Shown here piece by piece: positions 3,031 through 33,589 of a DNA stretch of 64,000 bases. A program made the position numbers and the translations under genes. The notes under the pieces were generated by a model that had not been told where the DNA came from, made no database searches, and was given only the letters and a program-made list of their open reading frames with translations. The stretch is from Udeniomyces pyricola (taxonomy: Eukaryota > Basidiomycota > Tremellomycetes > Cystofilobasidiales > Mrakiaceae), in the NCBI GenBank assembly GCA_039545295.1, contig BCIK01000015.1, positions 496,001 to 560,000 on the forward strand. Direction: 5' to 3'. How positions within the stretch are numbered: the stretch's first letter is position 1; the number at the start of each line of letters is the position of its first letter.

Positions 3031-3409
3031 CATCTTTTGATTACTTGGCTTCCTCGGTTGGTGTTTCATTGACATTTCTCTTTGTTTCTGCACACTTGCT
3101 TCTTCATCATCTCAGGGCGGACCTGGAGGAGGCATGATGGGAGGAGGAGGAGGTGGTGGTGGTATGATGGGTGGAGGAGGTATGATGGGGGGTGGATCTC
3201 ACCACGGCGGTCACCATGGTGGACCCGGAGGGGGCATGATGGGTGGAGGAGGACCCGGAGGAGGGGGCATGATGGGTGGAGGAGGAGGCTTCGGAGGACC
3301 TGGAGGACATCACGGTGGGCCTGGGGGAGGTATGGGCGGCGGACCAGGAGGTATGCAAGGTGGTGGTGGAATGGGCGGAGGAGGACCCGGAGGTCAAGGT
3401 CGATGGTAG
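2718..3409 (+). CDS. small Gly/Met/His-rich low-complexity protein
   Basis: Two exons, 2718-2846 and 3116-3409, joined in phase 0 give a protein of 140 residues. It starts with a short distinct head (MGLIGKILHHGEQKHHGG) and then is almost entirely glycine with regularly spaced Met-Met, Pro-Gly and His-His pairs, ending GGQGRW. There is no signal peptide and no membrane segment. The repeat unit is roughly GGPGGGMMGGGG. The coding call rests on the open frame, a clean GTAAGT donor and CAG acceptor, and a promoter-like upstream region with a TATA-like element. I do not recognise the family; glycine-rich fungal proteins of this kind are often highly expressed or stress related, but nothing here proves it. 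The intron carries a 45-nt T run. Confidence 0.7.
2986..3030 (+). repeat. T45 homopolymer inside intron
   Basis: Uninterrupted run of 45 T on the + strand, within the single intron (2847-3115) of the glycine-rich gene and about 85 nt before its acceptor. Length is likely polymorphic or an assembly estimate. Confidence 0.95.
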
Positions 3410-30687: not shown

Positions 30688-33589
30688 CTAGAGGATGAGA
30701 CATGATTTCTTCTTCCGTTTCCCGTTGGATGAGGATGAGCCTGTGTGTGGGTGTGTGTGTGTGTGTGTGGTGCGCGAACCGAAGAGAGGAGGGAGAGAAG
30801 AACAAGAAGAGAAGAGAGGGAGAGAGAGAAAGAGAGAGATACATGATCGTCTCGAGTCAATCCCAAGAAAAGAAGAGACCCAAACCTCGCAAGAACAAAA
30901 TCTTGCGAAAAAAAAAAAAGAAAAAAAAGACACTTTACCTCCTAAAGCCGGGACCAACACCGCTCGAATCGCCTCGTCAAACACGGCTTTGAGACCTTTC
31001 TGGGTAAGGGCCGAGCATTCGAGGTACCGAACGGCGCCAATATCTCGAGCGCATTGGACGCCGGCAGCGTAAGCGATAGGGGACATGTGTCGGGCTTGAA
31101 GTTTCGAGAGTGTCGCTGGATCATCGCGGAGCTAGTTGGGCATGGGAGGAAGAGGGTGAAACGGAAGGGGGGATAGGAAGAGGTTGGGTGAGTGAGAAGA
31201 GGGGAGTCAGGTAAAAGTGTAGGACCAAAGAGAAAGAGAAGAATGAGAAACTGGAAAGAGGAAGAGAGAGGGGAGGGGGAAGGATTGGGCGTACATCTTT
31301 GAAGGTCAAATAGGAAATCCAAGATGGAAGAAGCAACGATACAAGATCAAAGAGGGAGGTTGATGCAGAGAGTCAAGGGTTTGGGTTTAGACCGAGTCAG
31401 CAGATGCAATCGTGAGACACCAGGTTGAAGGGGTTGAATTGAGGCCCAAAGCATGATATGTGACGGGGGTGGGATATGGTATGATAGTATCGGAAGAGGA
31501 TGGAGGATGGGGAAGAAAGGGTGCCGACCTAGTTTGGTGCCTACCAGAACGATGGCTGAGGGATAAACCAGAAAAACCCGGTACGGAGAAACAAAGAAGA
31601 GAAGAATAATCGTTGGGTTACGAGTGGAAGAGAAGCATATTCCAATCAGTATGCGTAATAAAAAGATGGGTCCAAAATCAACATCTCTTAATCATGCCTG
31701 TAGGCTTGGTTTGAGATTGGTTGAAGTTACATGACGCCTGGCTAGCAAGCCTCTGTGATGAGCTTTCCTTTTCCTTTCTTCTTGTTCCGGGGCTTTGAAC
31801 TTCCTCGTCGTTTCCCACACAAATGACTCCATTCAACTTTACTCCTCTTCGCCATCCGCCCCTCCCCCTCTTCTCCTCTTTCCTGGTCCTCCTGAAACGA
31901 ACCCCAGTACAACCAAGAAAGACCAATCCTCTGCCCCCTCCTCCTCCTTCCCTTCCCAAAAATCGAGGAGAACTCACGGACGCCGGGCGCATGGTGGCTG
32001 ACTTCCGCATTCCATTTCGACCGGACGTTCTCGAAACTCGGTGGGGAAACAAGCGAGAAGCAGATGAGAAAGACATCGGTTTGGGGATAAGATAATGGCT
32101 GCACAAAAAAAGAAGAAGAATTTATTTATGTTTTGTCATTATTGGTGTCCCAAAGAAAACAAGGGACCCCCCCCCACTAGATATTCCCTGAAGAGGCGGT
32201 CGACTTCAGATTTTATTTTTCCTTCTTTTTTTTTTACGGCAAACACCATGAGAAGTACAAGCCCTCCCAAAAAAAAGGAAACGAGAACAGAAGAGGCAGA
32301 ACGGACCCGAAGCCGATCGTAATCTTCCTGACCGGCCGTATCCCAAAGGCCCAACTGGAGCGGTTTCGAATCGACCGTCAGGTTCGCACTGTAGTTGTCA
32401 AATACCGTCGGAACATATTCGCCCTTTTGTGTTCGTTCGTGTGTTCATTTGTTTTTTGTTCGGAAAAGAAAGGAGAGTAGAGAGGCGGGGGGGGGGGGGG
32501 TTCGGGAGGAGGGGGGGGGGTCAAGGGAAGGAGAGTGTTAGTTGGTGGCTGATTAGGATCAGAGCAGGAGATATGCATATATATGTCTTTGTTGTTCTGA
32601 TGAAAGGATAGGTGGATTGGGGGTTGGATGTCCGAGGAGGGACGTCGTCTCGGCATCAACAAGATCCGAAATCCATGGATGAGAAAATGACATACTGGAA
32701 AAGCCTGGAGCGACGAAGGGCCCCATGATACACATACGTCACGTCCCCCAAACGAGCGGTACACGAACAAAGTTCAGAGAAGGCGAGATGAATGGATGGA
32801 TGAATGGATGAACGAAAAGACACGGGTTGAGGAGGATGAGGACGATCATTAGCTTCGCCAATCGTCCAGTGTATCCAATGATCAATTGGTTTCGTCGTCC
32901 TCTCCTGTGCGTTTCAGCGGACGGGCTCAAGCTTATGCGACGCGTCGTGAAGGATGAAGACGTACGTTGGTTGTGTAAGAGATGAGGAGACACGTCTAGG
33001 AGCGTGTTGGGTAGGTCAGTCCAAGGAGGGATCGCAGGAAGCGAGGGGAAAGACGCGTCAGTTACGCGTCCGTCGTCTGGCATCGCGAGAGAGAGTCAAT
33101 CTCGACCTGAAGAGACCGGGTGAATAAGAGATCGTTGAACCGAGGGTTTCAAAGAAGGAAGGACTGACCTTGCCGACAGCTCCATCTCCTACGACGACCT
33201 TTGGCACGTAAAGACGAAAAGGGCAAGGAAAGGTTGGATAAGGAAAGATCGGGGGGGGGGGGGTTGGATTTTTGGATTGACGTGAGTCGATTGATTCTCT
33301 AGCTCGAGCTTTCCTTCTCGTCCTTTTGGGCCGGAAGGGGACGTATGGGCTTAGGACCTTACACCTAAGAGGGATAGGTTGAGGAGAACGGATGGAGAAT
33401 GGGTGTCAGGACATGGATACGCGGGAGTGTGTGCGTTTGGGGTTGAAGAGATTGACGACCGAGAGAGCATAATACAGGGAGAGATAGAGAGTGTTCCAAC
33501 GGTCTGAGCCGGTGGTGGCTCTTGCCCGAAAGCGTGGGAGGTGAGGGAGAGGATGGGCAAGAGTGCGTCATACATTTTATGGATTGCAT
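30688..33589 (-). CDS. RAC1: Rho-family GTPase Rac1
   Basis: Small GTPase controlling actin polarity and NADPH oxidase signalling at the plasma membrane. My model has 11 exons: 33589-33574, 33364-33363 (2 nt), 33198-33169, 32995-32966, 32704-32696 (9 nt), 32423-32307, 32098-31978, 31555-31529, 31296-31295 (2 nt), 31131-30939, 30740-30688. They sum to 600 nt, 199 aa, a complete Rac1: [18 protein letters not shown] (P-loop), switch I with YVPTVFDNY, switch [23 protein letters not shown] (guanine specificity), [11 protein letters not shown] (SAK-like motif), polybasic KRKKK and the CAAX box CLIL (geranylgeranyl type). Without the two 2-nt exons the frame breaks at exactly the Cys and Asp codons they supply. 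Acceptors and donors flank both. The 5' end is firm because ATG-CAA-TCC-ATA-AAA matches the family start. Confidence 0.93.
31295..31296 (-). other. RAC1: 2-nt microexon 2 of RAC1 (AT)
   Basis: Minus strand reads ...CTTCAAAG | AT | GTACGC.... The preceding exon ends AAA-CTA-G and the next starts CTC-CGC-GAT-GAT; G plus AT makes GAT, the invariant Asp of the TKLD nucleotide-specificity motif. Flanking introns are 31297-31528 and 31132-31294. Confidence 0.8.
33363..33364 (-). other. RAC1: 2-nt microexon 1 of RAC1 (GT)
   Basis: On the minus strand the order is ...CTCTTAG | GT | GTAAGG.... Exon 1 ends ATA-AAA-T and exon 3 starts GTC-GTC-GTA; only an inserted GT makes TGT (Cys) and continues [10 protein letters not shown] in frame. 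The upstream intron (33365-33573) has GTATGA donor and a CTGAC branch-like site; the downstream intron (33199-33362) has a GTAAGG donor and CAAAG acceptor. Confidence 0.8.

Follow-up and report, generated by a model that had tools for sequence, protein, structure and literature searches.

How a RAC1 gene can encode the aspartate of its TKLD sequence when the exons on either side of this residue do not join in frame is the question raised by this locus, which lies in a window of 64,000 nucleotides (the whole stretch of DNA that was analysed). The gene is complete on the - strand, at 33589-30688 of the window, and was modelled as 11 exons of 16, 2, 30, 30, 9, 117, 121, 27, 2, 193, and 53 nt, in this order, encoding 199 residues (Table 1). 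In the CDS check, 199 open codons run from the start MQSIKC through the CAAX box CLIL and the stop, with no internal stops. The best PDB matches of the product are Rac1 chains (residues 1-197, E about 1e-96), and its full-length similarity to Rac together with the CAAX box assigns it to the Rac subfamily of Rho GTPases. The residue in question, Asp118, is what we take to be the Asp of the [NT]KxD motif, which reads the guanine base. Upstream of RAC1, on the same strand at 36600-34274, lies an MCM-binding-protein-like gene, presumably a homologue of that protein; its closest match is a Phaffia rhodozyma protein (36%).

Table 1. Predicted exons of the RAC1 gene and the two introns at Asp118 (window positions).
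Feature	Position	Strand	Basis
Exon 1, 16 nt, ATG...AAA T (MQSIK and first base of Cys6)	33574..33589	-	Spliced alignment at penalties 4-12; CDS check
Exon 2, 2 nt, GT, finishing Cys6 (TGT)	33363..33364	-	Spliced alignment at penalties 4-12; shuffles; intron positions 6.1 and 7.0
Exon 3, 30 nt, 10 residues	33169..33198	-	Spliced alignment
Exon 4, 30 nt, 10 residues	32966..32995	-	Spliced alignment
Exon 5, 9 nt (AFP)	32696..32704	-	Spliced alignment; paralogue L012; 1/5000 shuffles
Exon 6, 117 nt	32307..32423	-	Spliced alignment
Exon 7, 121 nt	31978..32098	-	Spliced alignment
Exon 8, 27 nt, GTKL and G at end	31529..31555	-	Sequence reading; spliced alignment
Intron gtcggc...caaag, 232 nt, phase 1 within the Asp118 codon	31297..31528	-	Splice-site scoring; same position in L012
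Exon 9, 2 nt, AT, finishing Asp118 (GAT) of TKLD	31295..31296	-	Alignment; homologue conservation; join enumeration; decoys
Intron gtacgc...actag, 163 nt, phase 0 between Asp118 and Leu119	31132..31294	-	Splice-site scoring; intron-position comparison
Exon 10, 193 nt, LRDD at start	30939..31131	-	Sequence reading; CDS check
Exon 11, 53 nt, 3' part being the CAAX box	30688..30740	-	CDS check

Read on the - strand, the junction consists of ...ACCAAACTAG (to 31529), gtcggc...cttcaaag, AT (31296-31295), gtacgc...ccaactag, and CTCCGCGATGAT (from 31131). A preliminary description of this DNA had noted that the exon ending with GTKL plus G (31529) and the exon opening with LRDD (31131) are two bases out of frame with no direct repair, had assigned the Asp of TKLD to AT at 31295..31296, and had proposed another 2-nt exon in the same gene; all these claims withstood the analysis, and the coordinates of the junction proved right. 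When the joins from exon 8 to exon 10 were enumerated with GT, GC, or AT donors and AG or AC acceptors, no direct join gave the conserved 16-residue sequence that includes TKLDLRDD. When a single additional exon of 1-60 nt was allowed, AT at 31296-31295 was the sole GT-AG solution, and it was still the sole GT-AG answer when 0-3 residues were permitted between KL and LRDD. The same AT was picked at all five intron penalties (4, 8, 12, 16, and 20) by a self-written spliced aligner that works at the nucleotide level with exon length unrestricted. When the AG before AT was masked in silico, the alignment score fell from 679 to 647 and TKLD was lost; masking the GT after it gave a score of 671 and the same exon, with a GC donor instead. 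If AT is omitted, the reading frame continues as KLAPR and a stop. Asp118 is present in 120/120 homologues (the best 120 of 7987 matches), with no insertion columns between positions 118 and 119, and the flanking introns, 232 and 163 nt long, exceed the 70-nt minimum of the training introns. Microexons are internal exons of at most 15-30 nt, and AT is a stretch bounded by AG and GT that is needed for a conserved frame and residue. Judged from the genomic sequence, AT at 31296-31295 is very probably a 2-nt RAC1 exon restoring Asp118, and such an exon is by a wide margin the best explanation of this junction.

The companion exon GT at Cys6 (33364-33363) was picked at penalties 4, 8, and 12; at penalties 16 and 20 the aligner lost the 5' end of RAC1, that is, exons 1 and 2. 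Cys6 is found in 117/120 homologues (again the best 120 of 7987 matches), and omission of GT leads to a stop within the first 40 residues. The splice sites around this exon are mixed, with donors at percentiles 4.8 and 7.6 and acceptors at percentiles 78.3 and 2.4 of the 253 training introns, and the intron that follows it lacks a branch-like CTRAY/YTGAC motif in its final 140 nt.

The source genome (25.0 Mb in 38 contigs) also contains a second RAC1 (L012), CDC42 (L002), RHO1 (L011), and other Ras-family genes. The second RAC1 gene (G000:C11:686219-689392) has two 9-nt exons, one of them coding for the same AFP residues as exon 5 of the window gene, and phase-1 introns in Cys6 and Asp118. In Rac1 numbering, the introns of the window gene are at 6.1, 7.0, 17.0, 27.0, 30.0, 69.0, 109.1, 118.1, and 119.0, with one more near the end; positions 6.1, 17.0, 27.0, 30.0, and 118.1 are common to it and L012, and positions 7.0, 17.0, and 27.0 to it and CDC42. 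Both introns bounding the GT exon are thus found separately in paralogues, as is one of the two bounding the AT exon: the sequence right after the L012 intron at 118.1 is ATTTGCGC, with AT opening an ordinary exon. An intron at 119.0 is absent from all five other Rho-family genes placed. At the sequence level, these intron positions give independent support for the 2-nt exons. The window gene and L012 have the same residue at 138/177 codons, with a dN of 0.23 and no dS returned by NG86, which we read as a sign of saturated synonymous sites and purifying selection.

How readily such exons would arise by accident was estimated with shuffles, real introns, and decoys. AG-A[TC]-GT occurred in 63/5000 dinucleotide shuffles of the 397-nt AT gap and AG-G[TC]-GT in 151/5000 shuffles of the GT-exon gap; near-real scores at the acceptor and donor of the exon itself were reached in 2/5000 shuffles for AT and 4/5000 for GT, by score thresholds that, here as in the decoy test, were chosen after the real sites had been seen. 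Exon 5 (AFP) gave 1/5000. Among 110 real introns that are 150 nt or longer, with at least 60 nt on both sides, AGA[TC]GT was found in 7 and AGG[TC]GT likewise in 7, none of them with near-real scores. For the decoys, 2 nt were deleted at junctions of other conserved genes. The undamaged junctions gave a spurious exon of at most 5 nt in 0/214 cases; after the deletion, an exon of this size arose in 73/214, of exactly 2 nt in 44. Frame repair of any quality is cheap once a fault exists. A gapless 2-nt repair with the exact residue and both introns of at least 60 nt was obtained at 4/218 decoy junctions (2/83 for introns 150 nt or longer); scores like the real ones at the exon's two sites were reached at none of the 218. 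Two such repairs in RAC1 by accident are therefore unlikely, in agreement with the earlier argument against coincidence.

We give a probability of about 0.88 to the reading in which this RAC1-type Rho GTPase gene would have two GT-AG introns placed two bases apart around Asp118, with AT between them as a constitutive 2-nt exon. Were two bases simply missing from the assembly at this junction, the AG-AT-GT in the intron would be coincidental. The assembly is indeed imperfect, with 1-343 N in 16/77 loci fetched, and chance AGA[TC]GT is seen in real introns at the frequency of 7/110 given above; however, the RAC1 stretch (L001) contains no N, and an error would need the same coincidence at Cys6 of the same gene. 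Moreover, the aligner has no frameshift state, and frame faults would appear only as gaps or odd exons, but alignment gaps within 6 nt of a junction number 4 among 317 junctions in 42 genes of at least 55% identity, and those four (in RAB7, RAB5, and an ARF-like gene) are each one extra residue. The internal gaps of eEF2 probably stem from the reference used, which has 858 residues versus 841-842 in the model and most matches. We consider an assembly or sequencing error very improbable.

A decaying RAC1 copy with frame faults, its work done by L012, is a shade less probable than such an error: a second, complete-looking RAC1 does exist, but 199 open codons, an intact CAAX box, and a dN of 0.23 with no dS returned speak against decay, and both supposed faults sit exactly at introns common to paralogues. 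The least probable of the three is that non-canonical splicing supplies the two bases. AT at 31459-31458, the second solution of the one-extra-exon enumeration, is the only other one once AC acceptors and AT or GC donors are allowed, but it requires two non-canonical sites (AC acceptor, AT donor). GC donors were seen in 2/253 training introns, a set for which the aligner sought GT/GC donors and AG acceptors only, leaving AT-AC introns unsampled. AT taken from 31459-31458 or from 31296-31295 would yield an identical mRNA.

If AT at 31296-31295 is the exon, its splice signals are weak. Relative to the 253 training introns, a scoring set from which introns beside exons shorter than 18 nt were left out, the donor at 31528 is at the 2.4th percentile and the acceptor before AT at 9.1; the donor of the downstream intron is at the 13.9th percentile and its acceptor, 31132, at 20.6. 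The summed site scores are 4.3 for the upstream intron and 10.0 for the downstream one. CTGAC, the most enriched pentamer near intron 3' ends, is located about 100 nt from the end of the intron before AT and about 75 nt from the end of the intron after it; a branch-like motif within 10-90 nt of the 3' end is present in 188/253 training introns. AAG acceptors were noted beside several tiny exons, at 33199, 32424, and 31297 in the window and in L012 and the phosphatase gene L038; beside exons of at most 9 nt they make up 6/36 versus 15/389 elsewhere (p = 0.005), a post hoc comparison in which 4/6 come from the two RAC1 genes.

In the mechanism that we propose, a phase-1 intron inside the Asp118 codon, common to the RAC1 paralogue, would be followed by a phase-0 intron just after the codon, each probably recognised across itself (intron definition). 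The two would be removed sequentially and not together, because two spliceosomes can hardly fit on AG-AT-GT at the same time, and with one intron gone AT would become part of a normal-sized exon. If site scores were all that mattered, the intron after AT would be the first to be removed; pairing of a stronger with a weaker intron around tiny exons, taken as a sign of splicing order, gave no significant asymmetry (18 tiny versus 309 longer exons, p = 0.12). The phase-0 intron at 119.0 may be the younger of the two. We infer inclusion of AT in the mRNA and its constitutive use, as we do the order of removal and the relative age of the phase-0 intron.

Tiny exons were found in other genes of this genome. 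From 65 models made, 60 were kept (L045, L049, L050, L069, and L071 were dropped for identity below 40%), and these conserved housekeeping genes, a biased sample and not a genome average, contain 435 introns in 50,151 coding nt, or 8.67 introns per kb, and the median length of their internal exons is 85 nt. Among their 375 internal exons, 18 are at most 9 nt long, 7 at most 5 nt, and 3 exactly 2 nt. Better splice sites accompany AAA (3 nt) and GTCGTC (6 nt) in CDC42, TCG (3 nt) in RHO1, CAACC (5 nt) in RAB11, TTACAA (6 nt) in ARF1, and ACACTGAGG in beta-tubulin. The third 2-nt exon, CT, is in a PP6-type phosphatase gene (L038, G000:C16:135500-141000) at 3300-3301 on the - strand; it finishes an Ala codon, was picked in 6/6 runs with three references, and has no competing AG-CN-GT in its gap. 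Its acceptor is weak, AG-CN-GT arose in 375/5000 shuffles, and near-real scores in 2/5000. L038 may also have a 4-nt exon, GATG, further along, which was picked in 4/6 runs only and not relied on; 3'-terminal exons only a few nt long in automatic models (e.g., of PP1) were taken as artefacts and kept outside the internal-exon count.

The preliminary description had gone further, suggesting that the species splices 2-nt exons routinely and proposing a screen of other conserved genes as a check. The suggestion stands in part: 2-nt exons recur, at the counts just given, which bear out the word routinely only partly, and the genes sampled yielded CT in L038, with the weak acceptor and the shuffle frequency described. 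Multiplying 3/375 by a guessed number of ~50,000 internal exons would give about 400 sub-codon exons. That such exons are a regular feature of the genome, present in hundreds and spliced by sequential intron definition, with the 2-nt exons of RAC1 as a tunable gate because skipping either gives an early stop, is a speculative view that we hold to be unlikely. Several repeated genes were also seen in this genome. Many histone H3/H4 copies lie on contigs C2 and C9, with seven H3 places at 88-89% to the query H3, weaker H3 places too, and several H4 places nearby. Two EF1A copies with a near-identical match pattern are at G000:C10:944035-945898 (near the C10 end) and G000:C29:289612-291475, and a kinase match near the C29 end recurs on C38.

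Among the best 120 of 7987 RAC1 matches, the highest identity is 82%, for an alignment that covers 89% of the query; for alignments along the entire query it is 78%. For eEF2, the closest among the 120 matches listed are Mrakia frigida (91%) and Phaffia rhodozyma (90%), all others being at 85% or below, which would place the fungus near Mrakia and Phaffia (Cystofilobasidiales, Tremellomycetes). In the available part of a report on Cystofilobasidiales, intron densities of 7.4-7.5 per gene for Phaffia and 8.2 for Mrakia blollopis are called the highest among fungi, and the average exon length of Phaffia is given as 199 nt (PMC5103461); sub-codon exons are not mentioned in that part. Comparable to the RAC1 AT are the tiny exons of Cryptococcus neoformans var. 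grubii, a member of the same class Tremellomycetes, for which the accessible text describes intron-dense genes and exons down to 1 bp in an annotation based on RNA-seq, and in which a 2-nt RAC1 exon is not described (PMC3990503). By that text, the Cryptococcus genome has a median exon length of 194 nt and, in its coding sequence, 3.35 introns per kb; the biased sample of 60 genes analysed here has 8.67 per kb, and internal exons with a median length of 85 nt.

Plants provide further examples of sub-codon exons between two introns, according to the portions of the reports available: a constitutive 1-nt exon in Arabidopsis APC11, whose two introns are proposed to be removed in succession (PMC4674806), and 1-nt exons in plant APC11 and VPS55 (PMC8831610). 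The same succession, with intron definition, would be the likeliest route for AT. In contrast to plant VPS55, where the exon is 1 nt and the donors are conserved GTRAGT, the RAC1 exon, predicted from genomic sequence, is 2 nt, fungal, and weak in its sites. Stwintrons, the spliceosomal twin introns of fungi in which a second intron splits a splice element of the first (as described in the accessible part of PMC6616335), are similar in that neighbouring introns need consecutive splicing; however, they keep no exonic base between the introns, whereas the two bases between the RAC1 introns must remain in the mRNA, and a stwintron was rejected since the join without AT runs into the stop after KLAPR. 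Zero-nucleotide recursive splicing was rejected as well, because AG does not stand directly before GT and the two bases between them are needed. An exon of 2 nt so named was not found in the literature searched, where the wording may differ and most subscription papers were outside the scope. Since 1-nt exons have been reported in Cryptococcus and in plants, the RAC1 AT would belong to a rare but known kind, of which it is a good further example.

If the proposed structure is true, a central switch protein owes one of its invariant nucleotide-binding residues to a 2-nt exon with weak splice sites, in a lineage of extreme intron density. At Cys6, two introns would be separated by two bases, and each occurs in a paralogue without the other, an arrangement that would indicate a route by which such exons originate. 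Automatic gene models will break genes that have them. The relatives of this fungus include culturable laboratory yeasts, e.g., Phaffia, in which the minimum exon size and the order of splicing would be directly testable.
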